Assembly (NCBI GenBank): GCA_016215605.1
Contig: JACRJB010000067.1
Coordinates: 124,001 to 188,000 of the forward strand
DNA length: 64,000 nt
Source of the DNA: Rhodopseudomonas palustris
GTDB lineage: Bacteria; Pseudomonadota; Alphaproteobacteria; Rhizobiales; Xanthobacteraceae
Direction of reading: 5' to 3'
Position numbers and translations under genes: made by a program. The notes under the pieces were generated by a model. It was not told the origin of the DNA, ran no database searches, and saw nothing but the letters and a program-made list of their open reading frames with translations. How positions within the stretch are numbered: the first letter of the stretch is position 1; each line of letters starts with the position of its first letter. Positions 5,626 to 58,599 of this stretch are shown here, piece by piece.

Positions 5626-7467
5626 ATGGCCGCAGGCTTTCATCTTCTCCTGACGGTGAAGTTGGCGGCAGCGGCCGCAGGCCTGAACGCAGCGATCTTC
5701 TGGTTCGGCGCGGCGAGCGCTTTGACCGTACGTCTTGCCGGCGGGAGACCTCCGCCGGGGTCGGCATTTCTGTTCGGGCTGGGCTTTGCCGAGCTGATTG
5801 TCGGAAGCTGGATCTGTTTCCATCTCGACATAGGTCTGCGCACCGGCTTTGCGCTGATGTGCGGCGCGAGCTTGGTTCTTCCTGCGTCGGCTGCGGCGCT
5901 TGCGGGCCGCCGCGTGGCGTCGTGGCAGACCCTCGCGCCGGCGCTGCCGAGCCGCTTCACCGTGGTCGCCTTCCTGGTCTGCGCCCTCGCCTTCTCCGGC
6001 TTCATCACCGCGGCGCTGACGCCCGGCGATCTCGCGATGGTGCTGAGGGGCAACAACGATATCCACATGTACGCGAAGGTCGCCGACGTCCTGCTCAACT
6101 ATGCCGGCGGCCCCGGCAACATTGTCGGTATCGATCTCCGGCCGCCGGTTCAGAGCGACGTTTTCGGCGCCTACGTCTATCTGGCGCTGGCTGCGTTTCT
6201 GACGCAGCAGCCCACCGTCAGCATCACGTTGATGCCGCTGATCGGCGCGGCGGCGCTGATCGGGGCATCGATCGCGTGGATCGCCGCACGCATCATCCGC
6301 CTGCCTGCGCCTGCCGCCATTGTGCTGGCGCTGTGCGTGCTGTTCACCGGGCTGTTTGCCGAGATCTCCTTCAACTATTTTCTGTCGCAGCTGATCAGCC
6401 GGGCGTTGATGCTGACAATGCTGATCGCGCTGCTGCAGGCACACCAGAGACGTTGCCTGTCGCTACCGATCTCCTTCACCATCGGCCTGGCCATCCTGAT
6501 CGGCATCCAGACCAGCTATCCGGCCCTGTTCTTGTCCGATCTGACGATGTTCGCCGGCATCTACGCGGGCCTTCAATGCATCGACGCGCTCTCGCGCCGG
6601 CGAAGTGCGGTGGTCTGGACGCTGTTTGTCGCGGCGTTGAAGTCCGTCGGCGTCACCGCCGCGATCTTTGCAACCGTTGCCCTGCTGTTTCCCGATCGGG
6701 TCTCACATGCCTTGCAACTGATCCGATCGTTCAGCGAGGTCGATGTCGGCGGATGGCCGATGGATCTCGTCAGCCCATTGATGCTGTCGGGTCTCGGCGT
6801 CGGGTGGACGTTCCCGTCGCTCGCCGGCTGGCCTGCGGTGCAGTTCGCGGTGCTGGCGGCGATGGTCCTGGCCGCGACCGTGCTGGTGGCCCGCAAGCGG
6901 GACGCGCCTCAGGATCCCCTACTGCTACTCGGGCCGATGGCGCTCGGCGCGCTGTTGCTGGCGCTGTATGCGGTCGCCTGGCTCCGCTTCGGTCAATCCT
7001 ATCGGCAATGGAAATTCGCCGCCTCGTACAGCCTTCTGCTCGGCTTTGCGGTGCCGGGGACGGCGCTCGCTTTGCTGTGCGCTCCGCTGCTGGCACGTTG
7101 GCGCCGGACCACGACTGCCGCGATGACATTGGGTCTGGCAGCGATCCTGGCCGCGAATTGGCACTTCAGTCGACACTGGCACGACAATGAGGGCCACTTC
7201 CCGCTGGACTATTTGACGATCGCCAAGATCGACTCAATGCCGGACCTTCGCGACGTGGTGATCGACCTGCCCGAATTCGGGATGCGGATGATGGCCGCTT
7301 CGCTGATCCGCCACAAACGCGTCGGCCTGACCGGACTGACCTACTATGGCGCGGGCGCCCCGCCACCTTCGCCGATCCCTGACGGGATGCGCGTGCTGCG
7401 CCTGAAGAGCGCCGCCCGCCCCGGCGACGAACCGCTCGGCGAGTTGTTCGTGCTGTCCCGCCAGTGA
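5626..7467 (+). CDS. Large polytopic membrane protein, GT-C-like, function unknown
   Basis: 613 aa, about a dozen hydrophobic segments, ending in a short soluble tail. No family is recognised with certainty. After the first membrane segments, an outside-facing loop carries NNDIHMYAKVADVLL, that is D145-x3-Y149-x3-A153-D154-x-L156, the layout of the first-loop acidic motif of GT-C enzymes such as ArnT and PMT. This makes a polyprenyl-phosphate-sugar-dependent glycosyltransferase the best guess. ATG 5626 is chosen because the frame upstream of it runs through the GT2 gene; it lies 11 nt after that gene, so it is probably co-transcribed. The gene is convergent with the next one, with only 8 nt between them. 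It could instead be a polymerase or flippase, but its layout differs from both. Confidence 0.6.
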   Translation: MAAGFHLLLTVKLAAAAAGLNAAIFWFGAASALTVRLAGGRPPPGSAFLFGLGFAELIVGSWICFHLDIGLRTGFALMCGASLVLPASAAALAGRRVASWQTLAPALPSRFTVVAFLVCALAFSGFITAALTPGDLAMVLRGNNDIHMYAKVADVLLNYAGGPGNIVGIDLRPPVQSDVFGAYVYLALAAFLTQQPTVSITLMPLIGAAALIGASIAWIAARIIRLPAPAAIVLALCVLFTGLFAEISFNYFLSQLISRALMLTMLIALLQAHQRRCLSLPISFTIGLAILIGIQTSYPALFLSDLTMFAGIYAGLQCIDALSRRRSAVVWTLFVAALKSVGVTAAIFATVALLFPDRVSHALQLIRSFSEVDVGGWPMDLVSPLMLSGLGVGWTFPSLAGWPAVQFAVLAAMVLAATVLVARKRDAPQDPLLLLGPMALGALLLALYAVAWLRFGQSYRQWKFAASYSLLLGFAVPGTALALLCAPLLARWRRTTTAAMTLGLAAILAANWHFSRHWHDNEGHFPLDYLTIAKIDSMPDLRDVVIDLPEFGMRMMAASLIRHKRVGLTGLTYYGAGAPPPSPIPDGMRVLRLKSAARPGDEPLGELFVLSRQ

Positions 7468-7475
7468 ATTTCGAA

Positions 7476-9629
7476 TCACGCGGCCCAAAGCCGGCGGCCA
7501 GATTCGGTTCGGACGACGCGCCTGACCAATCCATCGCCGAACACGATCACCAGCAACAGCCCAGCCACGCCGCAGGCGGTCAATGCCCAGATCAGCCATG
7601 GAATCTCGTAGGTCACGACGATGGGCTGCCGAAGATCGGTTGTCCGAATGTTCAGGCGATAGTTGAAGTCGACCCAGGCCTTCAGCGGCGCCCCATCCTG
7701 GCGGGCAACGAGAAACCGGCTGTAGACCATTGGAACTTCGACAACATAGCTGCCGGACGCACTCGGCTGGTAGTTCCCGACAAGATCCTGCTGCACGGAA
7801 AACACCCGTTGCAATCCATGGGCTTTTGAGCGCTGCACGGCGTCCGCATAGACGTAGGAACGACCTGGCCCCTCGATGAGATAGGCGCGATCAAGATTGA
7901 ACGCGACCTGATGAATGCTGACGGGAACGCTACGCGAGAAACCGACGCGAATCCTCGCAGCGGCATCTGCCACAGGCAGCACGATGTCGAACTGTTCGCT
8001 GTCGATTCGCGTCGCATCTTCCGGAATGGTCGGTTTGGATACCCCTTTGTCGCCCGGCGGACCGAGCCAGACGTCATAGGGCAGTTCGACTCCCTTGACC
8101 GTTCGTCCGACCAGACGCAACGCGAGAGGAGAGCTTTGCGCAGCCGTCGTCTCGCGCCATTTTTCGATATCGATGTCGTTGAGGGCAATCAGCCCGCCGT
8201 TCATGAGAACACGAAATTCCTCATTCACGTAACGCGGAAACGTGTGGAAGGCATTGACCTCCCAGCCCTTGAGATACTGATCGTCAGTGAAGCGAAACAG
8301 CGGCACGGGATAGCTGATGACGACCCATTGACTTGCCGTCATCAACGTCAGCAGGGCGGCGGTGGTCTTCCATCCGGGCCTCCAGCGCACCAGCATCAGC
8401 GCCAGCGCACCGGCCAGGCTCAGGAACGCCAGCGTTCGAAACGATATCTGTGTGGCGGTGAAGGCCTGAGGCAACAGCGAATAGGCGAACTTCGGCGTAT
8501 AGGTCAGCAGAAAATAGGCGACGAAGAGCGCAGCAAGGATCGCAGCAAAAGCTCGGCGACCGGGCCGCGCCAGCCAGACCGCAACAAGCACTGACGGTAC
8601 GGTCCACCAACCGACCGTGAAGAAGAACGAGGTTTCATTGCCCAGCAGCGAGAACCTTCGCGGCCATCCGAAGATGCCACTGAGGCTGGAGAAATCCTGC
8701 ACGAAACTGTCGGTCACCTGCGCGGCAAAGCTGGTGTCTTTGAGACCGAGATAGGCCGGCATCCATTGCCAGGCGGTGATGGCCAAGCCGAGACCAAGAC
8801 CGAGCGCCACACTGCCGGGGGCGAGCAGACGCGGCGCGAGTCTGCCGCCGTCGCGGCGGCGAGCGACAACGGCTGCAACGAGGCCGAACACGACCGCAAG
8901 ACCACCAAAGAAGGCGCCATGCAGCAGGAAAATGTTGTGGGCGAGCGCCATGGCGCCGATGCCGAGGGCCGTCGCGACAACAGCCGCCCGATAGCGTCCG
9001 GTCCAGGCGCAGGCAAAGCCGAGCGCCATCATCGGCAGCAATGCGTGCGAAACGCCTTCGGCGACCCCGCCGCGCGCATAGATATTGCTGATCAGCCAGG
9101 GAGACACGAGGTAGGACCAACTGGCCAGCAGCGCCAGATTGCGTCGCGCTCCGAGCAGCAAGGCCGCCACATAAAGGCACAACGCCCCGACCGCGAAGCA
9201 GAGAAGGAGAACCCAGCCGAGCGCCTCCGGTCCCTTGATGCCTGCGCTCAAGAAGGGATAGGCGAGCGCGCTCGGCAAGAACGCGTAATATTGAAAGACC
9301 GGTGCATCGGGAGTCGGCGGCGTGCCGTCGACGGTCCCGCCGCCAAGCTGAAACTCACGCGGGAACTCGACAAGCCGTGGCGGAAGCTGGCCGTGATCGA
9401 GCGCGATCTTGAAATTCATCGCATAGCTGACTGCGGGCGGAAAATCGGCGCCCGCATAGGTGCGCCAGAGAAAACCGCCATAGAGCCAGAAGCATCCGGC
9501 CAGCAACGCTGCGACCGCCCAGGCATGGTGATTCTCGTTGCGGAGGCTGGCGACGAGCTGCGACGCAGATTGCACAACGCGATTCGGCAAAAGCCGGCGG
9601 TTCCACCCGGAGGAGTTGTTCTTTTCCAT
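7476..9629 (-). CDS. Large polytopic membrane protein, PTPS-related/GT-C-like
   Basis: 717 aa with many transmembrane segments in residues 37-460 and a soluble, beta-rich C-terminal region before a final membrane segment (WLIWALTACGVAGLLLVIVF). The first outside loop has YAGADFPPAVSYAMNF (D62), and further conserved-looking polar positions are LVSPWLISNIYARGG and LAHNIFLLHG. This arrangement resembles the bacterial membrane proteins grouped as 6-pyruvoyl-tetrahydropterin-synthase-related, a misnamed GT-C-like family. ATG 9629 follows an AGGAG site. It is convergent with the preceding forward gene. Its role is inferred only from context: it lies among glycosyltransferases in a polysaccharide island, so transfer of a lipid-linked sugar in the periplasm is plausible. 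Confidence 0.6.
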   Translation of the reverse strand: MEKNNSSGWNRRLLPNRVVQSASQLVASLRNENHHAWAVAALLAGCFWLYGGFLWRTYAGADFPPAVSYAMNFKIALDHGQLPPRLVEFPREFQLGGGTVDGTPPTPDAPVFQYYAFLPSALAYPFLSAGIKGPEALGWVLLLCFAVGALCLYVAALLLGARRNLALLASWSYLVSPWLISNIYARGGVAEGVSHALLPMMALGFACAWTGRYRAAVVATALGIGAMALAHNIFLLHGAFFGGLAVVFGLVAAVVARRRDGGRLAPRLLAPGSVALGLGLGLAITAWQWMPAYLGLKDTSFAAQVTDSFVQDFSSLSGIFGWPRRFSLLGNETSFFFTVGWWTVPSVLVAVWLARPGRRAFAAILAALFVAYFLLTYTPKFAYSLLPQAFTATQISFRTLAFLSLAGALALMLVRWRPGWKTTAALLTLMTASQWVVISYPVPLFRFTDDQYLKGWEVNAFHTFPRYVNEEFRVLMNGGLIALNDIDIEKWRETTAAQSSPLALRLVGRTVKGVELPYDVWLGPPGDKGVSKPTIPEDATRIDSEQFDIVLPVADAAARIRVGFSRSVPVSIHQVAFNLDRAYLIEGPGRSYVYADAVQRSKAHGLQRVFSVQQDLVGNYQPSASGSYVVEVPMVYSRFLVARQDGAPLKAWVDFNYRLNIRTTDLRQPIVVTYEIPWLIWALTACGVAGLLLVIVFGDGLVRRVVRTESGRRLWAA

Positions 9630-12935: not shown

Positions 12936-15167
12936 ATGCCGCCGCTATCCCCACCTGCAAATCTCACGGAAGCTTTGGAGCGGACAGCCCCCCACAAGAC
13001 AGTTGCAGAACGGACGGACGACGCGCCTCTCGGTTTACGCTCGGGCCGCCTCCCGTGGACGGCAGCCTCATTGTTCCAAGGCCTTAGCACCCACTCCCGG
13101 GTTTGGCTACTATTGCTTTTCACGGTCGAGGCGGTGGTCTTCTACGTCCAAATGGCGGACCAGATTGCGCCGTTCTTCCCGCTGAACTTCGATCAGGGGG
13201 GGTACGCGAACTATACCTACCAATTGTTCGAAGCGATCCGAGAGCGGGGCTGGAGCGCGATCGGATCGGTGATCACCGATCCACCCACGGCGACCGGGAC
13301 CGCGCTGATCATCCAGGGCGCCCTGCTGTCGCTGATCGGCGGTGCCAGCCGCACCACGCTGATCAGCATCAACCTGATCTATTTCATCGCGTTGCAGCTT
13401 GTCGTTTTGCTCACGGTGATGGCGCGCACCAAAAGTCTGCGGCTCGCGGGTATTGCGCTGGCGCTGCTGCTGGCGATGCGGACGTTCTTCAATCCCGCCG
13501 GGGGCATCTTCGACTTCCGGATGGATTTCGCCGCGCAGTGCCTCTACGGCATCTGGTGCTGCCTTCTGCTGTGGTCCAACCGACTCGCCGATCGTCGTAT
13601 TACCATCGCGGCCACGCTGGTCGCCATGCTGCTGGTGGCGACGCGCTCGTTCACGCTGATCTATTGCGGCTCGGTCCTGCTCGCACTGTGGCTGACTGCT
13701 CTGGTCGAGGCGCGGCGCGCGGTGGAGCCGTCCGTCCAGGCCGCGGCCAGACTTCGCGCCCGCAACACGTTCTGGTCCGGCGCAGCGCTCGGCGTGCTGG
13801 CGTTGCCGCTGATGTTCATGGCGCGGCAAAAAATCTACGAGAAATACGTGGTCGGCCACGTTCTCAACGACGAGAAATACATCCGCGCCGAAGAGATGAA
13901 TGTCTCCAACCTGTGGGAGCACCTGGCATTCTACCCGAAATCCGTGGCGATCGACCACATCGGACCGACCGCGGCGTGGCTGGCGTTGGCGTTGGTCGTG
14001 ATCAGCGTTGCGGCCGGCGTATTGCTGGCGCGGAGGGCCTCGCGCCGCACCGACCATCGCCGGCTCGCGGATCTCGGAGACATCGCGGCGTTGGTGCTGA
14101 CAATCCTCGTGCCGATTGCACTCTTGGCAGCCGACATCGCGAAATCGACGGTGGTCGGCGGCATCGTCGCGATCCCGCTGCTGTTGATCGCCACCTCGGT
14201 CATCGCCGCGCTGTCACCCTGGTTGTCGTCACCGACGAACGGTGTGTCGCAGAATGCAGGGCGAAACGGCGGCCACGTCCTCGGGACGGGTGTGACCTTT
14301 GCAGCGCTGACGGTCGGCGTCGGCGCCATGCTGCTGCACGCCAATGCCCGGCAACACGCATTGCCGCACAGCGACCTGCGGGCCATCAACACGTTGAACG
14401 AGGCGATTGCCGACTACGCCATCCGACTGAACCGGCCGGAACCGGCGATGTCGCTCGACCGCATCATCGACTACGTCAACATCGGCACCGTCGCCGTCTC
14501 CGCTTACGAACGCGACCGTGCCATCGTCAAGTTCCGCCGCGGCATGCTGGGCGACGATATATTCGCCGTGCCGCGCGATGAAGCGCTGAAGATGGCCGCC
14601 GACAGCGACATCCTGGTTCTCACCGATCCGCAGCGCGGACACGAAACGCCCTACCCGTTCAATGCCGGCATCAAGAGCTACTGGGACGATCTGCGCAAGT
14701 TCGCCAACGACAACATGGTGCCGCTGGTCGAGCGCGACATCGAGGGCATTCCGCACCGGGCGTACGTCAAGCCGGTGATCACGATCGGCGGATCGTCGGG
14801 CGGCTGGATCACCAGCGCAGGGCTGCTGCTGACCGCGAACGCCGCAGAACTCAGACGATGGCCCTGGATCCGGCTCGAAGGCGAAGCCCCTTACGACGTG
14901 CTCGGCGGCGAGCCGATTCCGCGGGCCGTCGTGCTGGGTGAGATGGACCAGCCCGGCACGGAACTGCCGGCGCGCCTGAACCGTCGCGGCAGTCGCTACG
15001 AAGTGGCGATCGACACACGCCCCGCCCCCGCCGGAGCGGATCAGATCCGGATCCGCCTGACCTTCGACCGGTTCTTCGTACCGAAGCTGCGTGGGATCAA
15101 CAGTGACACGCGCGAACTCGTGGTGTTCGCACCGGCGTCCACCGGGATGAGCGCCGCCGCGCCGTGA
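12936..15167 (+). CDS. Large polytopic membrane protein with C-terminal soluble domain, GT-C-like (paralogue of 18042-20183)
   Basis: 743 aa. A charged N-terminal tail (about 55 residues) precedes many transmembrane segments up to about residue 480, then a soluble domain of about 260 aa. The first outside loop reads PLNFDQGGYANYTYQLF: D86-x3-Y90, the same layout as in five other giant membrane proteins here. The soluble part has DSDILVLTDP, PYPFNAGIKSYWDDL and the end motif LTFDRFFVP, then GIN and TRELV. These are shared, often word for word, with the protein at 18042-20183, so the two are clear paralogues. No named family is recognised; a lipid-linked-sugar transferase is inferred. The ATG at 12936 is the first in frame; the GTG/TTG alternatives are not better. 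Confidence 0.65.
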   Translation: MPPLSPPANLTEALERTAPHKTVAERTDDAPLGLRSGRLPWTAASLFQGLSTHSRVWLLLLFTVEAVVFYVQMADQIAPFFPLNFDQGGYANYTYQLFEAIRERGWSAIGSVITDPPTATGTALIIQGALLSLIGGASRTTLISINLIYFIALQLVVLLTVMARTKSLRLAGIALALLLAMRTFFNPAGGIFDFRMDFAAQCLYGIWCCLLLWSNRLADRRITIAATLVAMLLVATRSFTLIYCGSVLLALWLTALVEARRAVEPSVQAAARLRARNTFWSGAALGVLALPLMFMARQKIYEKYVVGHVLNDEKYIRAEEMNVSNLWEHLAFYPKSVAIDHIGPTAAWLALALVVISVAAGVLLARRASRRTDHRRLADLGDIAALVLTILVPIALLAADIAKSTVVGGIVAIPLLLIATSVIAALSPWLSSPTNGVSQNAGRNGGHVLGTGVTFAALTVGVGAMLLHANARQHALPHSDLRAINTLNEAIADYAIRLNRPEPAMSLDRIIDYVNIGTVAVSAYERDRAIVKFRRGMLGDDIFAVPRDEALKMAADSDILVLTDPQRGHETPYPFNAGIKSYWDDLRKFANDNMVPLVERDIEGIPHRAYVKPVITIGGSSGGWITSAGLLLTANAAELRRWPWIRLEGEAPYDVLGGEPIPRAVVLGEMDQPGTELPARLNRRGSRYEVAIDTRPAPAGADQIRIRLTFDRFFVPKLRGINSDTRELVVFAPASTGMSAAAP

Positions 15168-16500: not shown

Positions 16501-16507
16501 CGCAATC

Positions 16508-41631: not shown

Positions 41632-41635
41632 CATC

Positions 41636-46455: not shown

Positions 46456-47159
46456 CACTCTCCCCTAGCCCTGAAATAATCCGCCGTCTCGGCGAGACCC
46501 TTGTGGGATCCGATTTCGTAGAAACGCTCCTGAACCTCGTATCCTTCGAGCTGCCCTGATAGCGACAGCTCGTGATAGACATCGGCCAGGTCGAAATTCG
46601 TGTCCGCCGGTTGCTGCGCGAGCACATCGGCGGAAATCACGCCGAGTCCGTAGTCGATGTACTGCATCTCGGGCCGCGGCGCGCGCTTGTTGTACTCCAC
46701 CAGCGCGTTGTTTCGGAACAGGACGTTGCTCTTGTCCCACTGGTCCGAATTGCGCTGCACCGTCATCAGCGCCGGCTTGCCACAGGCCAGAAAGCTGCTC
46801 TCGACCGCTCGAAAATCAATCGGCAGATAGGAGTCTCCATACAGGACGAAAAACGACGAGTCCAGCAACGGCAGCGCTTTGCGGAGCGCTCCGCCGGTTC
46901 CAAGCAGCGTCGGCCAGTCCTGTGAATAGGCGACCGAAACACCATAGTCGCTGCCGTCGCCGACCAGATCCCTGATCTGCTCGCCCAGATAGCCGATGCA
47001 CATCACCACCCGACCGATTCCCTGCTCGCGCAACTGCGCCAGCTGGCGAACAATGAAGGGCTGGCCGGCGACCTCGACCAGCGCTTTGGGAATCGTTTCC
47101 GTGATCGGCTTCAGCCGCGTTGCCAGGCCGCCGGCCAGAATGGCGACCGGAAGCGTCAC
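46455..47159 (-). CDS. hddC: D-glycero-alpha-D-manno-heptose-1-phosphate guanylyltransferase
   Basis: 234 aa. The nucleotidyltransferase begins VTLPVAILAGGLATRLKP and has IPKALVEVAGQPFI, LLGTGGALRKALPLL and FVLYGDSYLPIDF. It transfers GMP from GTP to heptose-1-P. The start is GTG 47159, overlapping the hddA stop as GTGA; the longer open frame upstream is not coding. Order and function match the HddA/HddC pairs known in GDP-heptose loci. The size fits (about 230 aa). Confidence 0.9.
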   Translation of the reverse strand: MTLPVAILAGGLATRLKPITETIPKALVEVAGQPFIVRQLAQLREQGIGRVVMCIGYLGEQIRDLVGDGSDYGVSVAYSQDWPTLLGTGGALRKALPLLDSSFFVLYGDSYLPIDFRAVESSFLACGKPALMTVQRNSDQWDKSNVLFRNNALVEYNKRAPRPEMQYIDYGLGVISADVLAQQPADTNFDLADVYHELSLSGQLEGYEVQERFYEIGSHKGLAETADYFRARGE

Positions 47160-48136: not shown

Positions 48137-49121
48137 AGCCGGAGGTCCTGTAAATCTTGTCGATGATGGTGAGTGCCTCGACCGCGTCGCGGAGACCTGC
48201 GGAGGGCTGCCTGTTCAAGCGGATATCATCCCGGAACTCCGCGAATTCCACATCCCAGGAATTGTCGGCCATCGGAAACTCCCACGCAGTGGTTTCCGGC
48301 GGCCCCATCTCCGGCAGCATCTTGTAATAGGTCAGCCGCTCCAGCCCGTAGCTTCCGCCGAGCCCGTTGATATCGAGCTTGCCATCCCGGCCGTAGATTT
48401 CAAACGAAAACGTGTTCTTCCACTCGGTGCAGCTCGCGTGCAGGAACGCCACCTGCTTGGAGGCGGTCTTGAGCAGCAGGAAGCCATTGTCGTCGACCGG
48501 CATCTGCCAGAACATCGTGGCGGCATAGCCGTCGACCTCGGTGAAGTCGCCGAGAAACCAGCGCGACAGATCGATCAGATGAGGCCCCTGGTCGATCAGT
48601 TCACCGCCGCCCGACCGCTTCGGATCGGCGCGCCATTCCTTGTCATAGCCGACACGCCCGCCATGGCCGTACCGCGCCCGAATGAACATCAACGGTCCGA
48701 GAGCGCCGGACGTCACGATGTCATGAGCCTTCTGCAGAGCGCGATGATAGCAGTGGTTGAAGCCCACCCGGACCAGCACGCCCTTCGCGGCCGCAAGATC
48801 GATCAGGCCGGCAAGCTCCGAGGGATGGCGCGCCGCCGGCTTCTCCACCAGCACATGCTTGCCGGCTTCGATGGCGCCGCGCGTGATCTCCGCCAGCGTG
48901 TCGTGCAGCGTGGCGACCATGACCACCGAGACCGCAGGGTCATTGACTGCAACCCGCCAGTCGGTGACGGCCTTGCAGCCCGGCACCGTCGCGGCCAGCC
49001 GCTCCGCCCGATCCTGGGCGATGTCGGCGCAGACCACGAGGCGCGCTCCGCCGAGCGCCTTGGCGCGCTTGTGGCCGATCAGTCCGCAACCGATGATCGC
49101 TACGCCGAGTTGATCGCTCAC
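48120..49121 (-). CDS. Gfo/Idh/MocA-family oxidoreductase
   Basis: 333 aa from GTG 49121, which overlaps the SDR stop (GTGA); ATG 49133 is an alternative. GVAIIGCGLIGHKRAKAL is the NAD-binding loop, HVLVEKPAARHP has the family Glu-Lys-Pro, and GGGELIDQGPHLIDLSRWF the active-site Asp/His region. It probably oxidises or reduces a sugar nucleotide in the heptose chain. Possible substrates are GDP-heptose derivatives or a uronic acid; none can be assigned. Confidence 0.87.
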   Translation of the reverse strand: MSDQLGVAIIGCGLIGHKRAKALGGARLVVCADIAQDRAERLAATVPGCKAVTDWRVAVNDPAVSVVMVATLHDTLAEITRGAIEAGKHVLVEKPAARHPSELAGLIDLAAAKGVLVRVGFNHCYHRALQKAHDIVTSGALGPLMFIRARYGHGGRVGYDKEWRADPKRSGGGELIDQGPHLIDLSRWFLGDFTEVDGYAATMFWQMPVDDNGFLLLKTASKQVAFLHASCTEWKNTFSFEIYGRDGKLDINGLGGSYGLERLTYYKMLPEMGPPETTAWEFPMADNSWDVEFAEFRDDIRLNRQPSAGLRDAVEALTIIDKIYRTSGYDHDA

Positions 49122-49987
49122 CGGTCGCCCCATGTCTTGCCGCGATCGCGGCCCGTGATTCGTCGCAGCGTGTAGACGTCGCTGTCGTTGAGTTCGTCGA
49201 GATGCTGCGGCCAGTCTTCCCAGCGGTCCCACTGCGCCGCGATCAGCTTGCCGGTGATGCCGTTGCTCTCATCCGAGCCGAGGAAGACGCAAAGCTTGGC
49301 GCCGACTTCGAGCGGCGTTCCGCCCTCGTCGGCGATCTTCTTCATCCGATCGTAGAACGCCTGCCCGACCTTTTCGGGTCCCGCGGCGAGCAATTGATCC
49401 ATCATGCCGGTGTTGAGGGCGCCGGGCGCGATCGAATTGACGTCGATGCCGTCGTTCTTCGCTTCCAGCGCCAGCGACTCGGCGAACCGGACCACCGCGG
49501 CCTTCGAAGCGGCGTAAGAGGTGATCGCAGGCAGCGGATTGGTGGCGCCGCCGCCGGATACGTTGATGATCTTGCCACGACGTTGCGCCCGCAACATCGG
49601 CATCGCCAGCCGGCAGCAATACACCAGGCCGAGCAGATTGATCCGGATCGCGTCGACCCATTGCTCCCAGTCGACGTCCTCGATGTTGCCCATCGGGCCG
49701 TAGACGCCGGCGTTATTGACGAGGATGTCGAGCCTTGGAAACTCGGCGCGCAGCGTCGCGAACACCGTATCGACGTCCTTCGGCTCGCCGACATCGGCGA
49801 CGACCGTGACCACCCGGGCGCCGTCCGCGAGCTTCGGCCTCAGCAACTGCGCCTGCTCACGCAGCTTCTCGGCGCTGCGCGCGCACAGCAACACGCTGGC
49901 GCCGTTGGCGACGAAATGCTGAGCGATCTCAGCGCCCAATCCCTGGCTCGCGCCAGTGATCAAAGCAAATCTGTCGCGCAGCTTCAT
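49118..49987 (-). CDS. Short-chain dehydrogenase/reductase
   Basis: 289 aa classical SDR. MKLRDRFALITGASQGLGAE is the cofactor loop (TGxxxGxG), LDILVNNAGVYGP and INVSGGG follow, and the catalytic Tyr-x3-Lys is YAASK in SYAASKAAVVRFAESLAL. The C-terminal 60 residues (KLIAAQWDRWEDWPQHLDEL and onward) extend beyond the normal fold. ATG 49987 overlaps the dehydrogenase stop (ATGA). The extension with DWPQHL and DVYTLRRI is seen in sugar-pathway SDRs; the substrate is not identified. Confidence 0.87.
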   Translation of the reverse strand: MKLRDRFALITGASQGLGAEIAQHFVANGASVLLCARSAEKLREQAQLLRPKLADGARVVTVVADVGEPKDVDTVFATLRAEFPRLDILVNNAGVYGPMGNIEDVDWEQWVDAIRINLLGLVYCCRLAMPMLRAQRRGKIINVSGGGATNPLPAITSYAASKAAVVRFAESLALEAKNDGIDVNSIAPGALNTGMMDQLLAAGPEKVGQAFYDRMKKIADEGGTPLEVGAKLCVFLGSDESNGITGKLIAAQWDRWEDWPQHLDELNDSDVYTLRRITGRDRGKTWGDR

Positions 49988-51279
49988 CGGCCCTTGCCCG
50001 CCACGATGTAGTCGAGCCCCGGTGCGATCGCGGCCGATTTGGCGGCGTAGGCGTTCTGATCGATCAGCATCGGACGGCTCATGCCGGCGACCAGCCCCGC
50101 ATAGTCCAATTCGCGGAAGTCCGGCCATTCGGTCGCCAGCACGACGGCTTCGCTGCCCGCGAACACATCGCCGGGCGAAGCAACGATCTTGACGGACGAC
50201 GCCAGCGGCTCCGGCAGCGATTTCACCTTGGGGTCGAAGGCGGTGACGTCGGCGCCGTTCCTGATCAATTCCTGGATCACCTCGATCGCAACCGAGCGGC
50301 GGATCGCGTCGGTCCCGGCCTTGTAGGCGAGGCCGAGAATGCCGATCTTGCGGCCCTTCAAGGCGCCGAGCTGCTTCACAAGATGCCGGACGACCCACCC
50401 CTTGTGATGCTCGTTGCTGTCCAGCACCGCCGCGAGCACCGGAACCTGCGCGTCCTGCTGGCCGGCGATCGCCTTCAGAAACTGCACGTCACGGGCCAGC
50501 GTGCCGCCGCCGAACGCGGAGCCGGCCCGGACATAGGCCTTCTTGCCGATCCGCGGATCGAGCCGCAACGCCGCCTCGACTTCGCTCATGTCGGCCGAGA
50601 CGTTCTCGCACAAGGTCGCGATCTCGTTAGTGAACGTCACGCAGGTCGCCAGATAGGCGTTGAGCGCGTGCTTGACCATCTCGGCGGACTCGACCCGGGT
50701 CCACAGCAACGTATCGCAGAACGGCTTCAGCACGACCTCGATCACGTCGCGCGCATGCGCGTCGCGCACGCCGATCACGATCCGCTCCGACTGCGTAAAC
50801 ACGCGAATGGCGTCGCCTAGCCGCAGGTTTTCCGGCGAATAGGCAAACGAGACCTTGCGACCGCCAGCCACGGCGGCAAAGTCACGCTCCAGCAGCGCGG
50901 TGCTGCCGACCGGCACCTGCGACGAGATCAACACGACCGCGCCATCCTTCAGATGGGCAAAGGTGCCGCGCACGCGTTCGAGAACGTATCCGACATCGGC
51001 GACGTCGTTGTCGTCCACCGGCGTGTCGAAGTTGACCCACAACAAATCCGCGCTGCCGACGGCAGCTGCGACGTCGTGGGTGAATTCGAGCGTCTTGTCG
51101 CGCAATCCCTGCGCCACCATGTCGTCGAGCCCCGGCTCGAACAGCGGCGCTTTGCCGGCGCTCAGTTCGGCGACGGCCTCGGCGCTTTCCGCAAGACCGA
51201 TGGTGGAGATACCGCGCGATGCAAGGCACGCGGCCGTCACCGTGCCCAGGTGCCAGAGGCCGTAAACGCAGACTCTCAT
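49984..51279 (-). CDS. UDP-glucose/GDP-mannose dehydrogenase-family protein lacking the catalytic Cys
   Basis: 431 aa. VCVYGLWHLGTVTAACLA is the NAD loop, YSPENLRLGDAI and VKHALNAYLATCVTF (with K203 and N207) the usual mid-region, but the motif that reads FGGxC-x2-KD in the family is FGGGTLARD here: the catalytic Cys place is Thr260 (codon 50502-50500). Therefore the two-step oxidation to a uronic acid may not occur, or a different chemistry may be used. The C-terminal domain with GILGLAYKAGTDAIRRS is complete. ATG 51279 overlaps the epimerase stop. No frame damage is visible, so it is likely a functional variant. Confidence 0.85.
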   Translation of the reverse strand: MRVCVYGLWHLGTVTAACLASRGISTIGLAESAEAVAELSAGKAPLFEPGLDDMVAQGLRDKTLEFTHDVAAAVGSADLLWVNFDTPVDDNDVADVGYVLERVRGTFAHLKDGAVVLISSQVPVGSTALLERDFAAVAGGRKVSFAYSPENLRLGDAIRVFTQSERIVIGVRDAHARDVIEVVLKPFCDTLLWTRVESAEMVKHALNAYLATCVTFTNEIATLCENVSADMSEVEAALRLDPRIGKKAYVRAGSAFGGGTLARDVQFLKAIAGQQDAQVPVLAAVLDSNEHHKGWVVRHLVKQLGALKGRKIGILGLAYKAGTDAIRRSVAIEVIQELIRNGADVTAFDPKVKSLPEPLASSVKIVASPGDVFAGSEAVVLATEWPDFRELDYAGLVAGMSRPMLIDQNAYAAKSAAIAPGLDYIVAGKGR

Positions 51280-52232
51280 GAACGCGCCTCGAGAATCCAG
51301 GGATTGGCCTTCAAGTATTCCAGGGTCGCGAGCACGCCCTCGCGGATCGACAATTTGGGCGTCCAGCCCAATGCGCGGATCCGACTGCAATCGAGGAAGA
51401 TGAACGGATTGTCGCCGATCCAGCCGCGCTCGCCGCCGGTGTAGGACAATTTCGGCGACACGCCGAGACGTTCGCAGATCCAACCGATCGACTGGTTGAC
51501 CTCGCAATACTCGTTCTGGCCGAGATTGAAGATGTTGACCTTGCCGTTCGCCCGCTCGACCGCGATCAGGATCGCGTCGATGCAATCCTGAATGTACAGG
51601 TAGGACTTGCGCTGCTTGCCGTTGCCCAACACCTCGAGCGAGCTCGGATCTTCGCGAAGCTTGCGATAGAAATCGAACACGTGGCCGTGGGTGTAGCGCT
51701 CGCCGAGGATCGAGACGAAGCGGAAGATGAAGCCTTGAAAGCCGAAGCCCTCGCAATAGGACGCGATCAGGCCCTCGGCTGCGATCTTCGAATTGCCGTA
51801 CAACGAGGTCTGCACCGGGAACGGCGCATCTTCCGGGGTCGGAAACACCGTCGCCTCGCCGTAGACCGAACCGGTCGACGAGAACGCGATCTTCTTGATC
51901 CCGTTCGCGCGCATCGCCTCGAGCACGTTGAACGTCGCGATCAGGTTCTGCTCGATATCCTTGAACGGATGATGCGTTCCGAACCGGACGTCCGCGTTGG
52001 CGGCGAGGTGAAAGACGATATCGCAGCCCGCGATGGCGGACTTGACCTTGTCGAGATCCAGCAGGTCGCCCTCGACCAGTCGAAAGTGAGGCGACTTCTG
52101 CGCGTCATCGACGAAGCGGCGTTGGCCGGTGGAGAAGTTGTCGTAGCCGACGACGCTGTGGCCGTCCTTCAAGAGGCGATCGACCAGACTGCTGCCAATG
52201 AAGCCGGCGGCTCCGGTAACGAATGCCTTCAT
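51276..52232 (-). CDS. UDP-sugar epimerase/dehydratase (SDR, GalE-like)
   Basis: 318 aa. MKAFVTGAAGFIGSSLVDRL, FHLAANADVRFGTHHPFKD, FSSTGSVYGEA and YGNSK (Tyr-x3-Lys) make it an extended SDR of the WbpP/GalE type; FRFVSILGERYTHGHVFDF and RKSYLYIQDCIDAIL are typical. It begins 1 nt after the GtrA stop and is coupled to the dehydrogenase. It is near the head of the reverse chain of sugar-nucleotide genes. The sugar is unknown. Confidence 0.87.
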   Translation of the reverse strand: MKAFVTGAAGFIGSSLVDRLLKDGHSVVGYDNFSTGQRRFVDDAQKSPHFRLVEGDLLDLDKVKSAIAGCDIVFHLAANADVRFGTHHPFKDIEQNLIATFNVLEAMRANGIKKIAFSSTGSVYGEATVFPTPEDAPFPVQTSLYGNSKIAAEGLIASYCEGFGFQGFIFRFVSILGERYTHGHVFDFYRKLREDPSSLEVLGNGKQRKSYLYIQDCIDAILIAVERANGKVNIFNLGQNEYCEVNQSIGWICERLGVSPKLSYTGGERGWIGDNPFIFLDCSRIRALGWTPKLSIREGVLATLEYLKANPWILEARS

Positions 52233-52233: not shown

Positions 52234-52686
52234 TTATTTACTCACAAAGACCCAAGCCCGCATGACTGTGAAGCTGATCGCCGACGAGGCTACGATTCCG
52301 ATGAACAGCGCTATCGAAGTATCGAGATGCAGAAGCGTGCGGGCACCATAGAACGCGCCCCAGTTGACGACGGTGGTCATACACAACAGCACGCCGAATT
52401 TCAAAACCTCAGCGCGGATCGCAACGCTGCTCTTGTGCAAAAACGTAAAGTATTTCGAAGCGACGAAATGCGCGGCGGCCGCGACGACGTAGGATACGAC
52501 CAGGGAGACGTATTCGCCGGCATGGCGCGACAAAAAATAGAACAGGACGATGTAGAGAACGTAGGACGAGACGCCGGTGATGATGAAGCGCAGCCCCTGA
52601 AGCGCCAACGCGGGCGCAGCGTCGAAAGCTCGCGCGGCGGCCGGCGTCTGATCGAATTCACTTCGACGGCGCAAGGAGAACAACAT
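52234..52686 (-). CDS. gtrA: GtrA-family small membrane protein
   Basis: 150 aa with four hydrophobic helices (for example FIITGVSSYVLYIVLFYFL and SIALFIGIVASSAISF) and a short cytoplasmic N terminus: GtrA/PF04138 layout, thought to flip polyprenyl-phosphate sugars. KYFTFLHKSS and WVFVSK are typical ends. It follows the GtrB-like gene by 36 nt and precedes the heptose/epimerase chain, so it belongs to the same transcript. It would provide donors on the periplasmic side. Confidence 0.88.
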   Translation of the reverse strand: MLFSLRRRSEFDQTPAAARAFDAAPALALQGLRFIITGVSSYVLYIVLFYFLSRHAGEYVSLVVSYVVAAAAHFVASKYFTFLHKSSVAIRAEVLKFGVLLCMTTVVNWGAFYGARTLLHLDTSIALFIGIVASSAISFTVMRAWVFVSK

Positions 52687-52722: not shown

Positions 52723-53697
52723 CTAAAAATTGATTTTCTTGTCAACGATAAACATCGGACGACGCTTGGTTTCATCGTAGATCCGCCCGATATACTCACC
52801 GACGACGCCCAAACCGAGCAGTTGCACGCCCGAAAAGAAGGTTACCACGAGAACAGTGGTCGAGAGGCCGGGCGTGAGCGGAACACCGAATACCCGTTGC
52901 AGGGCATAAAAGATGCCGACGAGGAAGCTCAAGCCGGCCAAGCCGAAGCCGGCCAGCGACATCACCTGCAGCGGACGGCTGCTGAACCCCACTAGGCCAT
53001 TGATGCCGATCCGCAGCGAGCCGACCAGCCGGTTGTAATTGCCCGTGCCCGAAAACCGTGCATCGCGATCGTACAGCACCGCAGCCTGCTTGAATCCGAC
53101 GAAGGCGACCATGCCGCGCAAAAATCCGTGGGACTCCGACAGCCGGCGGAGTTCCTCGATCACTCTGCGCGACATCACCCGAAAGTCGCCCGTGTTTCGC
53201 GGAATCTGCACGTCACTCAGCTTGTTGATGACCGTATAGCCGAAATGCGAAATGCCACGCTTGATGAGGGTTTCGCCCTCCCGCGAGGTCCGCATCGCAT
53301 AGACGACCTCGTAGCCCTCGGCCATTTTGGCGAGGAGCTTCTCGATCAGCTCGGGCTGGTCCTGCAGGTCGACGTCGATCACCACGCACTTGTCGCCCGT
53401 GCAGTGCAAGATGCCGGCCATCGTCGCGGCGGGCTGCCCGAAGCGCCGGGAGAACAGCAGCAGCTTGATCGACGGATTGCGTTCGATTTCCTGCAGGATC
53501 ACCGTTTCCGTATCGTCCGGCGAAGGATCCAGCGAGAAGATGATCTCGTAGCTCAGTCCGAGCTTGGCCATCACCGCTTCGGTCCGCTTCAAGAACGGCC
53601 TGATGTTGGCCGACTCCTTGTAGACCGGCACCACGATCGACAAGTCGACGGATTTGCCCAGATCGGGTTGCACGGGCGGCGTTACGGTCATTTCCAT
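52723..53697 (-). CDS. gtrB: GtrB/DPM1-like polyprenyl-phosphate glycosyltransferase
   Basis: 324 aa. SIVVPVYKESANIRPFL, EIIFSLDPSPDDTE, the metal site DVDLQDQPEL and RNTGDFRVMSRRVI show the DPM1/GtrB enzyme; two transmembrane helices lie at about residues 238-300. It would load a sugar on undecaprenyl phosphate for GtrA. ATG 53697 (a second ATG in frame at 53691). It heads the reverse chain gtrB-gtrA-epimerase-dehydrogenase onwards. The sugar is unknown. Confidence 0.88.
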   Translation of the reverse strand: MEMTVTPPVQPDLGKSVDLSIVVPVYKESANIRPFLKRTEAVMAKLGLSYEIIFSLDPSPDDTETVILQEIERNPSIKLLLFSRRFGQPAATMAGILHCTGDKCVVIDVDLQDQPELIEKLLAKMAEGYEVVYAMRTSREGETLIKRGISHFGYTVINKLSDVQIPRNTGDFRVMSRRVIEELRRLSESHGFLRGMVAFVGFKQAAVLYDRDARFSGTGNYNRLVGSLRIGINGLVGFSSRPLQVMSLAGFGLAGLSFLVGIFYALQRVFGVPLTPGLSTTVLVVTFFSGVQLLGLGVVGEYIGRIYDETKRRPMFIVDKKINF

Positions 53698-53853: not shown

Positions 53854-56187
53854 CTAGGGTACCTCGGTGATGCGACCGGGAAATGCCTCATCCAAGGGGT
53901 ATTTGCCCTCGAGCGACGATATCAGCGGGCTCTCACCGAACCGAACCGGACCGCTCAGCTGAAGCGAGGTGGCCGACAACGGGAGGGCGGCTTCTGTCAC
54001 CGCCCCGTTGCAAACCAACCGGATATTCCTGTCGAAAAGCGACATTCGCAATTCGAGCTTCATCCGGTTTCCCCGGCACTCGCCCCCTGGAACCATTTTC
54101 ACGGGGGGATAGCCCCATTGGTCGTAACGGAACGTATTGGATTCTCCGAACTGCACGGTCAGCAAGGAGGCGTTCCCCGGTTGTCCTGAAACCCAGACCG
54201 GATACCAGTGGTCCGGCGCAGTCTCGTCGACAACCTCGAGGTCGAGCTTTCGATTGATCTCGATGCGCGTGTCCTCGATCATGCTGTTCAGCTCTGCCGC
54301 CGAGGCGGGCTGATAGATGAACACCCTCGAATTGGCGTACAGCTTCCTGTTCTCGAGGCCGGGATGCTGCTTCCAGCTCACGACCAGCGGAGCCGCGGCT
54401 GACTGGTTCTCGATCTGGCTCAGTCGTTTGGAGAACGCGACACCCACTGGATCGCTATGAACCGAGATCGTCGCGATCATCGGAATGACGCGGTTGTTCC
54501 GGGCGAAATATTCCAGCCAGGCGGTTCGATAGGAGCCCGAGTACATCTCGTTGTCGACCCAGAGCAGATAGACGTCACGCCCGCTGGTCGCGCCGAGCAG
54601 TTCTCTCACGTGATGAAAATCCGGATCAATCAACAGATTGGCGGCCCCCCGATGAGACTTCGCCACGGTTTCGGGGTTCGCTGAGGCCGACGCGATGCTG
54701 AAAACCAGGGCCGCATTCACGGCCGCAAACAGGGCGCCGAAAGCGTATGCGGGCAGTCTCCCAGGATTCGCCTGGAGTCGCTCACCAACTGCAATGATTA
54801 GCCAAAAAACGTACAGCGGCGCGACGCTGAGGACGAGTTTATAGAATTGATAGCTGTGGGACGACGCCTTGCCGAGCGCCAGGGGGCCCGCAGGGATCAG
54901 CATCAACAGGGCCAGAACCAGAAGGAAGTAGCTGAAACGCCGGCGCAATCGAACGGCCAAGGTGATCAAGGCGATGCCGATCAGAACGAGGCTCGCGACA
55001 GCGGCCACCGCCATGCCGGCCGGCTTGCCGACCTGGTTGCCGACCCACAGCCGCGCCATGCCCTCGGGGCGGTAGGCCCAGGGATAGATCATCCCCAGCA
55101 CGTCGCCGGATGTGGTCCGCGACATGATTGCCAAGGCCGAATGCCGGAAACCGAGATTGGCGAGGAACGCGACCAGCAGCGCGAACAGAAGCCAGAACGT
55201 CGCTCTGCCCGCCCGCACGGGCTCCACTGAGCCCACGTGCCACCCCAGACGCCCCGCCCAGAGTTTCTCGGTTTCGCGAGCGAGCGCGCAGACGAGCGCA
55301 ATCCCGAGCAAAATGGGAACAAGTTCCGTGTAGATGGAAGCGATGACCGCGAGCAGCAGCCCGGTCGGAATCGCCGGTCGCCACCCCGGACTTTCCACCA
55401 GTCGCCCGACCGCAAGCGGCCAGAGCACGAGGAAAGGCATGCTCATCGCCTGCGAGAAGAAACACTCAAGGTGCACCGTCGCCACTGCCGGCGCCAGCGC
55501 TCCCGCCGCCGCAGCGAGGATCGACACGTTCATCGAAGCGACGAAGCGTCGGGCCATCGCCAGCAGGGCGAAGAAGATCAGAAAGGGCGCCAACAGGATG
55601 GTCGCTCCGAAGGTCTGCTGCGCATCGGCGCCCGATGACGCGACCAGAAACGCATGCAGCACCGACTGGCCGATCCGATCCAGCTTGTAGAAATGCGCCG
55701 CGCGCAGGAAATTCGGCGTCGTGTCCGACGAACTGAACGGCCAATAGGCGAATAGTTCGGCCTGAGCGACATAGTTGAACATGTCGTCCCAACCGTAGCC
55801 GTAGTAATAGCTCGCGCCGAGCCTCAGCAGGCCAGCGCCATGGATCAAGTAAACCAAACCTCCTGCCGCCAATGCGAGGAGCGGCACCGGGCGCAAGGCG
55901 GCTCGGCGATGCGGCGACAGCAACACCACCAACCAACCGATCGCCGCGAGCGACCAGACCCCCAATGACGATCGTGCGACGGGAATGTCGAGGTAGAGCA
56001 AATTCTGACAGACGAGAATGATTGCGCCGCAACCGACGAGCGGCGCGAGGGCCCAGGCCGCCCACGACTCGACCTTGAGCTTCAGGGCCGAAGCCCCGAG
56101 GATCACGGCGGGCACGCCAACCGCAAAGCCACAAACCCATGCGACTGCAATGACACGTGCAGTCACTCCGACTTCCACGATCGACAT
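53854..56187 (-). CDS. Large polytopic membrane protein with C-terminal soluble domain, GT-C-like
   Basis: 777 aa from ATG 56187 with AGGAG 5 nt upstream; the open frame above it is probably not translated. Many helices, with the outside loop YYGYGWDDMFNYVAQAELF carrying D135-x3-Y139-x3-A143-E144. The last 230 residues are soluble and end in a beta-rich part. Further conserved-looking positions are HLECFFSQAMSMPFLV and YPWAYRPEG. Function unknown; GT-C type transfer is inferred from layout and from GtrA/GtrB next door. It diverges from the next large membrane protein. Confidence 0.6.
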   Translation of the reverse strand: MSIVEVGVTARVIAVAWVCGFAVGVPAVILGASALKLKVESWAAWALAPLVGCGAIILVCQNLLYLDIPVARSSLGVWSLAAIGWLVVLLSPHRRAALRPVPLLALAAGGLVYLIHGAGLLRLGASYYYGYGWDDMFNYVAQAELFAYWPFSSSDTTPNFLRAAHFYKLDRIGQSVLHAFLVASSGADAQQTFGATILLAPFLIFFALLAMARRFVASMNVSILAAAAGALAPAVATVHLECFFSQAMSMPFLVLWPLAVGRLVESPGWRPAIPTGLLLAVIASIYTELVPILLGIALVCALARETEKLWAGRLGWHVGSVEPVRAGRATFWLLFALLVAFLANLGFRHSALAIMSRTTSGDVLGMIYPWAYRPEGMARLWVGNQVGKPAGMAVAAVASLVLIGIALITLAVRLRRRFSYFLLVLALLMLIPAGPLALGKASSHSYQFYKLVLSVAPLYVFWLIIAVGERLQANPGRLPAYAFGALFAAVNAALVFSIASASANPETVAKSHRGAANLLIDPDFHHVRELLGATSGRDVYLLWVDNEMYSGSYRTAWLEYFARNNRVIPMIATISVHSDPVGVAFSKRLSQIENQSAAAPLVVSWKQHPGLENRKLYANSRVFIYQPASAAELNSMIEDTRIEINRKLDLEVVDETAPDHWYPVWVSGQPGNASLLTVQFGESNTFRYDQWGYPPVKMVPGGECRGNRMKLELRMSLFDRNIRLVCNGAVTEAALPLSATSLQLSGPVRFGESPLISSLEGKYPLDEAFPGRITEVP

Positions 56188-56376
56188 CACGCTCCTAAAG
56201 AGTTCGGGACTGGCGCTCCGCCGCCGGTTGTAAGGAATAGTCTTACGCTTCCGCCCGGCGGCCGAGCAAGAGACCACCGAGTTCCGGGAAAAAGAATCCG
56301 CGCCTGATGATCTCCGGCGCTTACGATTCCCACAGCCATGCAATAGAACGAAGCTCCCGAATCCGAACGAGTGCGC

Positions 56377-58599
56377 ATGCTTTCCGCCGTCCTGTCAGCG
56401 CCAGCCGTGTCAGTTGCGACCGCGCTGCTCGGCTTTTTCGTGATGATCTGGCCGGGATATGCCGTTCTTCATCTGCTCGGACTCGGCAGGCATCGCTGGA
56501 AGGCCGCACTGTTCGCCGGCCCTGCGGTGACTACGGCGATTTGGACGATCGCACTCTCGGATGCTGCCTGGGCATCCGTGCCATTGCGAGATGTCGCCAA
56601 CGTCGTCTGGCTGACCACGGCGATCGCCGCGGCGTCGGGTCTGCTGCTCGCGGTGATCTCGCGCCCGCAGCCCCTCCCCGCTACCTCGTCTGCGGAACCA
56701 TCTGTTCGATGGCTCTGGATTTCAGTCGTGACCATCCCGTTCGTCATCATGCCGTCCGTCCTGTGGTTCGGACTCGGTGACTTTGCCAATTCGACGATGC
56801 CGGACTCCTGGTCCTACGTCACCGTCGCCGACTACCTCGCTCATGTCCCGCGCGGCGCCGATAGCGGGCTGTCGCCGTTGCATCAATACGCGTCTCATCT
56901 GATGCATGTGCGCAACGCGTCGTCGGCCATTCTGGCCCAGCTTGCGGCCGGCTTCGGCGTCAAGGCCGATCAGACGATGGCGCTGTACTGCCTGCTACTG
57001 CTGTTCGCGTTTGCCGGCGCGCTGGTGGCCTTCGGCATGACGGTGTTCCGGCACACGCTTGCCATCCTGTATCTCCTCGTTCTCGCGGAATTCGGCTGGA
57101 CCGCGAACATCGTGTTTGCAGGTAACTTCGATCAGCTGCTGCTGCTGCCATTCCTGCCACTGATCGCGTCGCTGGCGCTGCGCGCCGGCAGTGGCGAGGC
57201 CCGTGTGGACACGGCCGGCCTGCTGATCGGCGTGCTCGCCGCGGCGGCATTTCTCGCCTATGTCGAACTCGCATTTGCCGCGCTTGCCGTCGCGCTTGCG
57301 TTTGGAATTGCTACGCATCAACGCCCACTGGCTTTGATCGGCCGGGGCCTGATCGTGTTGTGCCTCGCCACCGTTCTATTCCTCCTCCTGACGTGGCCGG
57401 CGTTGCCGCCGCTGCTGGCGATGCTGCAGCACCAGTTCGTATCGAGTATTCCAGGCTCGCGTCCCGGCGAGGGAATGTTCGGGGGACTGACGTCGTTCAA
57501 GAACCTGCCGGCTACGTTCTGGGCCCTGGGAGGCGAACACGGCAAACATTTCGGTTGGCCGATCGGAGCACTGCTGTTCGCGGCTCTTGCCATTGGCGCA
57601 GTTGTGGAACGGCGTCGATGGCTCGCCTTATTGGCGCTGGCGACGGTGCTCGCCGGAGTTCTCTATTTGATCGTCCATGAAGTTTACAGCTACGGCGCCT
57701 ATAAGCTGATCAGCGTCAATTTCTGGATGGTGAGCTTCTTCACAGTTGCCGGGGGCATCTGGTTGGCCCGCTGGCTCTCACGGCGGTTTCAGCGTCCGCA
57801 CCTCGCAGCCACCGCGCTTCTCGTCTCCATTGGCGTCGTCGCGCTCGACCGCACCATCGTGCAGGCTCGCCTGATAAAATTCACCGCCAACACGATCCAG
57901 CAGCGCCAATTTCGAGAGGCGCTCGACGTTGCGGCGATCACCGGTCAATCCCCCACGCTCCTCTCGGTGCGCAGCCCGCTCGCCAATCAATGGGCGGTGT
58001 ACTACCTGAGTGACGTTCCGTTGCTGGTCTCGCCATATCGCATCTACATGGCGCAGGCCCATGTGATCCCGTACATGGAGCGAGCCAGAAAGATCGATCC
58101 GTCCGCGATCAAATACATCCTGACCGATCGAGACGACGACCTGGCAGCACCCGTGTCGGGTGCCAAACGCATCTGGAACGGGCAGGCCTACAGCCTGTGG
58201 CAGATCGTCGACGAGAACTGGTCGGTGTTGACCGACGCCAAGACTCCCAACGGCATCGAGCCCGGCAGACTGGGGCTCGGCGGTGGAGCGACCGAATTCC
58301 TGACCATGACGGCGAAGCCCCACCTTGCGCACCTGACCGGCATCCTGACCGCAGGCCCCCAGGCGCCGGCCGGAGTGGACATTTTCGCGGCGATCTTGCA
58401 AGGTGCGGGAGTTGATCAATCGATTTCGTTGAAGCTTGGACCGATGCATCTGCCTATCGATCTCAAGGCAGGCCCCGGGTCTTTCGCCATCTCCCTCCCG
58501 CAACCGCCCTCCGACCAGATCCCGGCGATTGGCGACAAACCAGTCATCCTGTGGCTCAGTCACCCTCGGTTGGAAGGGACGGACAAGGATTCGCGTTGA
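56377..58599 (+). CDS. Large polytopic membrane protein with C-terminal soluble domain, GT-C-like
   Basis: 740 aa from ATG 56377; GTG 56371 is a near alternative. Helices are followed by the loop TMPDSWSYVTVADYL: D143-x3-Y147-x3-A151-D152-x-L154, nearly the same pattern as in the protein at 5626. After about residue 510 a soluble tail contains YLSDVPLLVSPYRIYMA and a beta-rich end (for example LTAGPQAPAGVDIFAAIL). It has no recognised family. It is followed, after 108 nt, by a GT4 on the same strand. Confidence 0.6.
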   Translation: MLSAVLSAPAVSVATALLGFFVMIWPGYAVLHLLGLGRHRWKAALFAGPAVTTAIWTIALSDAAWASVPLRDVANVVWLTTAIAAASGLLLAVISRPQPLPATSSAEPSVRWLWISVVTIPFVIMPSVLWFGLGDFANSTMPDSWSYVTVADYLAHVPRGADSGLSPLHQYASHLMHVRNASSAILAQLAAGFGVKADQTMALYCLLLLFAFAGALVAFGMTVFRHTLAILYLLVLAEFGWTANIVFAGNFDQLLLLPFLPLIASLALRAGSGEARVDTAGLLIGVLAAAAFLAYVELAFAALAVALAFGIATHQRPLALIGRGLIVLCLATVLFLLLTWPALPPLLAMLQHQFVSSIPGSRPGEGMFGGLTSFKNLPATFWALGGEHGKHFGWPIGALLFAALAIGAVVERRRWLALLALATVLAGVLYLIVHEVYSYGAYKLISVNFWMVSFFTVAGGIWLARWLSRRFQRPHLAATALLVSIGVVALDRTIVQARLIKFTANTIQQRQFREALDVAAITGQSPTLLSVRSPLANQWAVYYLSDVPLLVSPYRIYMAQAHVIPYMERARKIDPSAIKYILTDRDDDLAAPVSGAKRIWNGQAYSLWQIVDENWSVLTDAKTPNGIEPGRLGLGGGATEFLTMTAKPHLAHLTGILTAGPQAPAGVDIFAAILQGAGVDQSISLKLGPMHLPIDLKAGPGSFAISLPQPPSDQIPAIGDKPVILWLSHPRLEGTDKDSR

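Follow-up and report, generated by a model that had tools for sequence, protein, structure and literature searches.

Seven large membrane proteins in a polysaccharide island

The 64,000-nucleotide stretch of Rhodopseudomonas palustris DNA analyzed here (the window; part of contig JACRJB010000067.1) encodes seven giant membrane proteins, denoted below by their left-hand coordinates (Table 1). As in the original prediction, which was made from the sequence of the window, all seven reading frames are open, with sizes of 613–829 amino acids (aa). The upper bound is the longest open reading frame (ORF) of 53854 (53854–56343, minus strand, 829 aa), whereas alignment with the Tardiphaga orthologue suggests that the true start is the ATG at 56187, which yields 777 aa. 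Apart from the giants, the window encodes a polysaccharide island with glycosyltransferases, epimerases, an ABC-2 exporter, MBOAT, methyltransferases and a nonulosonate set.

Table 1. Giant membrane proteins and associated genes in the window (TM, transmembrane; EL, outside loop; percentages are sequence identities).
Position	Strand	Feature	Details
5626..7467	+	Membrane protein, 613 aa	Core with GT-C-like loops behind additional N-terminal TM helices; motif D145-IHMY, in the loop that follows TM4
7476..9629	-	Membrane protein, 717 aa	PTPS_related (PF10131); loops arranged much as in GT-C enzymes; exact motif absent
12936..15167	+	Membrane protein, 743 aa	Paralogue of 18042 (42%); motif D86-QGGY
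18042..20183	+	Membrane protein, 713 aa	11 predicted TM helices; D46-QLSY (EL1), D153-x-R155-x-D157 (EL2), K363 (EL5); C-terminal domain predicted periplasmic
20198..22084	-	Membrane protein, 628 aa	Additional N-terminal TM helices; motif D143-HAGW
53854..56187	-	GT-C candidate, 777 aa from the suggested ATG 56187	Heads 12-gene minus-strand run; motif DD-MFNY
56371..58599	+	GT-C candidate, 742 aa	Diverged from 53854; motif D145-SWSY; Tardiphaga-group orthologues, 49% and 53% (two genomes)
52723..53697	-	GtrB-like GT2	Two C-terminal TM helices; polyprenyl-phosphate sugar synthase candidate; PF00535, E 2.2e-25; T. robiniae 81%
52234..52686	-	GtrA	Lipid-linked sugar flippase candidate; four predicted TM helices; PF04138, E 6.1e-14
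44587..52232	-	Nucleotide-sugar pathway genes, nine	Continue the run after GtrA
24880..25947	-	Second GtrB-like GT2	C-terminal TM helices; PF00535, E 6.1e-33
40687..42394	+	ABC-2 membrane protein and ATPase	Candidate polysaccharide exporter
15343..17734	-	MBOAT acyltransferase and 385-aa neighbour	Between two giants; MBOAT PF03062, E 2.5e-28; neighbour without Pfam match

Most of the giants had been predicted to lack a named family, and with respect to Pfam and NCBIfam, the two collections scanned, this holds for six of the seven: 5626, 12936, 18042, 20198, 53854 and 56371 have no Pfam match at E≤1. The protein 7476 belongs to PTPS_related (PF10131; E 1.5e-7, 30.7 bits against the Pfam cut-off of 26.4), a family that we take to be part of the Pfam GT-C clan. 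In NCBIfam, the giants yield only two matches, to unrelated families and far under the cut-off. The PMT_2/ArnT profile (PF13231), which represents aminoarabinose and mannose transferases, matches none of the seven at E≤1.

Only two pairs of giants are detectably related by BLAST and hhalign, and the set therefore comprises five sequence groups: 12936 with 18042 (42% identity), 53854 with 56371 (hhalign E 4e-5 over 332 columns including the motif; reversed control 0.33), 20198, 5626 and 7476. None of the remaining 13 group pairings falls below E 0.05 in hhalign, and one reversed control reached 0.032. MAFFT alignments of the four proteins with additional N-terminal helices (A2, A4, A5) bring the motifs into register, which is not proof of homology. 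A single sequence family for all seven proteins is accordingly rejected. Membership in ArnT/PMT_2 is rejected as well, given the lack of both a Pfam match and a significant hhalign match to 14 PMT_2 relatives. Sequence searches of solved structures with the queries A1, 7476 and A4 found nothing relevant.

Loop layout and the D-x3-[YW] motif

The giants have a common predicted layout: a long first outside loop of 64–80 aa, then two short outside loops, one of 38–49 aa, another short one and a C-terminal domain. In 20198 and 53854, a single outside loop of 30 or 38 aa replaces the short second and third ones, and in 5626, 20198, 53854 and 56371, three or four additional helices lie ahead of the core layout. 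The topology comes from a simple home-made predictor that is crude and places the C-terminus of 5626, 7476 and 12936 inside. The same script applied to 14 PF13231 proteins from seven genomes recovers the same order of loops, although EL1 (41–50 aa) and EL4 (26–35 aa) are shorter than in the giants. A loop rule, formulated after the layout was seen, is passed by 12 of these 14 controls, five of the seven giants and one of the 14 other polytopic ORFs (<600 aa).

The motif of the original prediction, D-x3-[YW]-x3-[AT]-[DEY]-x-[LF], is matched as a regular expression by six of the seven giants, with 7476 as the exception. It had been placed in an early outside loop; in all six proteins, it lies in the first long loop predicted to be outside (as the first long loop of 7476 also is) but, in four of them, four or five predicted helices precede this loop rather than one. 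Of the 14 PF13231 controls, 7 have D-x3-[YW] in EL1, the ArnT/PMT loop with which its spacing had been compared. In shuffled sequences, the full pattern arises with a probability of 0.0004–0.005 per motif loop and 0.002–0.007 per whole protein across the six proteins, figures that overstate the weight of the motif because the pattern was devised post hoc on these very proteins. Moreover, 12936/18042 and 53854/56371 are homologous pairs, so that the six matches amount to four independent ones.

Conservation of the motif in orthologues is stronger evidence than these chance figures. The Asp and the aromatic residue at +4 are kept in all orthologues seen, namely those of 18042, 53854 and 56371. 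All six 18042-family proteins, which come from five genomes, have D46, Q47 and Y50. The Tardiphaga robiniae orthologues of 53854 (46% identity) and 56371 (49%) retain D and Y at +4 but have an altered tail and do not match the full pattern; both residues are also kept in the 56371 orthologue (53%) from a second Tardiphaga-group genome, G762. Thus, the D-x3-aromatic core of the motif is conserved and the tail is not.

Conserved outside residues and structure models

In the 18042 family, invariant positions are concentrated outside (30 of 135 positions in outside loops versus 2 of 65 in inside loops; p 1.8e-4). They include D46 and Y50 (EL1), D153, R155 and D157 (EL2), R197 (EL3), H268, E273, R277 and E280 (EL4) and K363 (EL5), so that an RxD in EL2 and a basic EL5 residue are present in 12936 and 18042 and invariant in all six sequences. 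A similar outside bias is seen in the 56371 orthologues (78/137 versus 15/55; p 1.6e-4) and the 53854 orthologue pair (102/175 versus 12/59; p 2.7e-7), but not significantly in the joint five-sequence 53854/56371 alignment (18/137 versus 4/55; p 0.18). In this type, an EL5 Lys (K445 of 56371) is invariant in the five sequences, and the second outside loop lacks RxD, which is not required of every GT-C enzyme.

According to a published account of TMTC/GT-C enzymes, EL1 carries an acidic pair, EL2 an RxD and EL5 an Arg, with further motifs in EL3 and EL4; the first EL1 Asp is described as binding the acceptor and/or a metal (PMC7801869). The motif Asp had been expected at the donor site; by this account, it would instead lie on the acceptor/metal side. 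The loop that bears it is predicted to be periplasmic, and the residue is invariant across the six members of the 18042 family.

Structure modelling covered 18042 and the 56371 type. The 18042 model is of low confidence but points to a GT-C fold, by paralogy (42%) also for 12936: GT-C entries occupy Foldseek ranks 1–8 and VIA rows 1–31. Mycobacterial AftA and Emb arabinosyltransferases, which are large GT-C enzymes, are among the rows of this fold search, although they were not found by sequence search, come from different organisms and presumably transfer different sugars.

A conserved run of putative donor-sugar genes with an exchangeable transferase candidate

Two GtrB-type enzymes and a GtrA protein are present in the island, as originally predicted. 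One GtrB and GtrA follow 53854 directly in a run of 12 genes on the same strand (44587–56187), probably a single transcript, in the order 53854, GtrB, GtrA, epimerase, UDP-glucose-dehydrogenase-like, SDR, Gfo/Idh/MocA, HddA-like kinase, nucleotidyltransferase, GmhA-like SIS, HAD phosphatase and transaldolase. This order is kept in two Tardiphaga-group genomes (T. robiniae and G762), where GtrB is separated from the epimerase by a methyltransferase-like gene and GtrA. The nine sugar enzymes of T. robiniae share 64–93% identity with those of the window, and GtrB 81%, compared with 46% for 53854 and 49% for 56371. In G762, the place of 53854 is taken by a 786-aa protein with no detectable similarity to it (lowest hhalign E against the giant groups 0.085; reversed 0.07) but with the same loop layout and the EL1 sequence DDTFSY. 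A donor machinery that is conserved, next to a transferase that changes fast or is replaced, is in keeping with three-component O-antigen modification (PMC11127046). The gene run with its exchangeable transferase slot is the most interesting part of the locus.

The sugar cassette (44587–52232) is heptose-like, with NCBIfam scores far under the cut-offs for HddA (157 bits versus 600), GmhA (50 versus 209) and HddC (78 versus 300); its transaldolase passes its own cut-off (TIGR02134). Perhaps, the cassette is a new higher-carbon sugar pathway. A link to bradyrhizose was considered and dropped, the 11-gene Bradyrhizobium O-antigen cluster, as described in PMC4743980, not being possible to tie to this one.

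The giant families are patchy. Of 381 genomes of the bacterial family, five, from four genera, carry the 18042 family, and strong matches to 53854/56371 occur in 3 of 391 (8 at E≤0.01, of which five are short and weak); only two candidates were scored per genome, so further members there may have been missed. The 15 same-genus genomes among those listed contain no match to either. Among 100 genomes searched, 20198 is found only in its own, and 5626 and 56371 have two weak extra matches each among 199; weak matches of this kind (E 1e-4 to 1e-2), several in frames with stops, were left unused. One scan of genome contigs returned a single locus, in T. robiniae (L006), and no useful homologue came from viral contigs (queries A1, 56371, 53854 and 20198) or plasmids (18042, 56371 and 20198). 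Such patchiness is expected of mobile serotype genes, and some giants might, accordingly, be silent remnants of O-antigen gene shuffling that are now idle; with all seven frames open and the presumed active-site residues retained in the 18042 family, this is very improbable.

The giants as putative periplasmic GT-C glycosyltransferases

We propose, with a probability of roughly 0.75, that the seven giants are inner-membrane GT-C glycosyltransferases that would use polyprenyl-phosphate sugars as donors and decorate surface polysaccharide; the activity is predicted, and donor, acceptor and linkage are likewise what we infer. The evidence differs between the proteins: the model for 18042 and its paralogue, the Pfam match for 7476, and loop layout, motif and gene context for 5626, 20198, 53854 and 56371, which are putative GT-C enzymes by these features. 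Confidence is higher for 12936 and 18042 than for the other giants. The battery of periplasmic transferases envisaged at the outset remains the best reading, although its members form five groups without mutual similarity. Most likely, the set consists of at least four unnamed sequence families and one PTPS_related protein, all new members of a known enzyme type.

Under the proposed mechanism, a cytoplasmic GtrB-like enzyme would transfer the sugar from a nucleotide sugar to polyprenyl phosphate, GtrA or an equivalent would flip the lipid-linked sugar, and each giant would accept it in a periplasmic cavity and pass it to the polysaccharide of the island or a lipid-linked intermediate. The motif Asp in EL1 is the predicted catalytic or acceptor-side residue, and the conserved basic residues of EL3–EL5 may bind the lipid phosphate. 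The seven giants might differ in acceptor and linkage and thus act at different places on one or more surface glycans, as decorating or capping enzymes.

Three observations weigh against this proposal. The core D-x3-[YW] arises in shuffled loops with a probability of 0.17–0.71; the structure model of the 56371 type failed; and the profile–profile support expected for an ArnT-type GT-C did not materialize, none of the groups matching the 14 PMT_2 relatives significantly in hhalign (best E 0.017, for 56371), whereas one half of the PMT_2 set matches the other at E 2e-18. The commonness of the core, together with the fitting of the pattern to the same proteins, would suit the view that the motif is a chance pattern chosen post hoc and that the giants function in transport or as structural components of an export machinery. 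This is highly improbable in the face of the conservation of D and the aromatic residue in orthologues at 46–53% identity, their recurrence in the G762 replacement protein, and the retrieval of GT-C enzymes by the 18042 model.

An alternative that deserves somewhat more weight, albeit still unlikely, is that only part of the set uses lipid-phosphate sugars, and that 5626, 20198, 53854 and 56371 are GT-C enzymes of another kind, such as polymerases or ligases that use lipid-diphosphate oligosaccharides. The failed model is compatible with this possibility, these four proteins do not align with the 18042 family, and bacterial polymerases are described as highly diverse in sequence (PMC10920833). 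Conversely, in all four, the long loop precedes the rest of the core, and the C-terminal domain is predicted to be periplasmic in three; they have no Pfam match at E≤1, hence none to polymerase or ligase families; and, in three genomes, the run with GtrB and GtrA begins with 53854 or a look-alike protein.

Other genes of the island and its surroundings

The 385-aa neighbour of MBOAT looks, by eye, like an SGNH/AlgJ-type partner, making the two a candidate pair for periplasmic O-acetylation. The minus-strand region 27745–39036 contains nonulosonic-acid-like genes, including NeuB (36740–38008), a dehydratase resembling PseB/LegB (28955–30037), a DegT aminotransferase, CBS plus nucleotidyltransferase, an MptE-like protein and a B12 radical SAM protein. 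On the same contig, a GT-C-like 671-aa PMT_2 protein lies left of the window (L027:4750-6765), and a GT-C-like 788-aa PTPS_related protein lies about 2.3 kb to its right (L029:2314-4680). Tardiphaga-group contigs (L023:2388-16844, L040:3254-19690, L042:2031-4922) encode nine more membrane proteins of 766–1115 aa, of which eight pass the loop rule; none of the four scanned passes a Pfam cut-off.

Relation to known systems and implications

As in three-component Gtr systems (GtrA, GtrB and a serotype-specific GT-C enzyme), GtrB and GtrA here adjoin a large protein of GT-C-like appearance, the surrounding polysaccharide island encodes an ABC exporter, and the putative transferase is less conserved than GtrB. 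Unlike in Gtr systems, one island holds several transferase candidates from unrelated groups, and the run carries a heptose-like sugar pathway. Pentofuranose variants of three-component periplasmic glycosylation use GT136, a family founded on a GT-C enzyme without similarity to the known families, as reported in PMC11127046; unlike in these variants, no phosphoribosyl pyrophosphate (PRPP)-type synthase or MATE flippase is found among the annotated genes of the island, where not every gene is annotated. The literature search found no paper that joins GT-C glycosyltransferases with Rhizobiales lipopolysaccharide.

A bolder and rather doubtful extension is that the run 44587–56187 is a complete route from primary metabolism to periplasmic decoration, in which the donor pathway is constant from strain to strain and only the transferase at the head is exchanged for unrelated GT-C proteins. 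If so, transaldolase, SIS isomerase, kinase, phosphatase and nucleotidyltransferase would make an unusual higher-carbon nucleotide sugar, heptose- or octose-like, GtrB would load it, GtrA would flip it, and the GT-C enzyme at the head would decide its destination, so that the serotype would switch by the exchange of one gene; the enzymes would then found at least four new glycosyltransferase families.

Serotype and surface properties depend on periplasmic GT-C enzymes, whose fast divergence can hide them from profile searches. Here, six large candidates escape Pfam and NCBIfam but can be picked out by the arrangement of their loops, a short motif and their gene neighbourhood. The conserved GtrB–GtrA–sugar run with its exchangeable transferase offers a compact system for pairing orphan GT-C enzymes with their donors.

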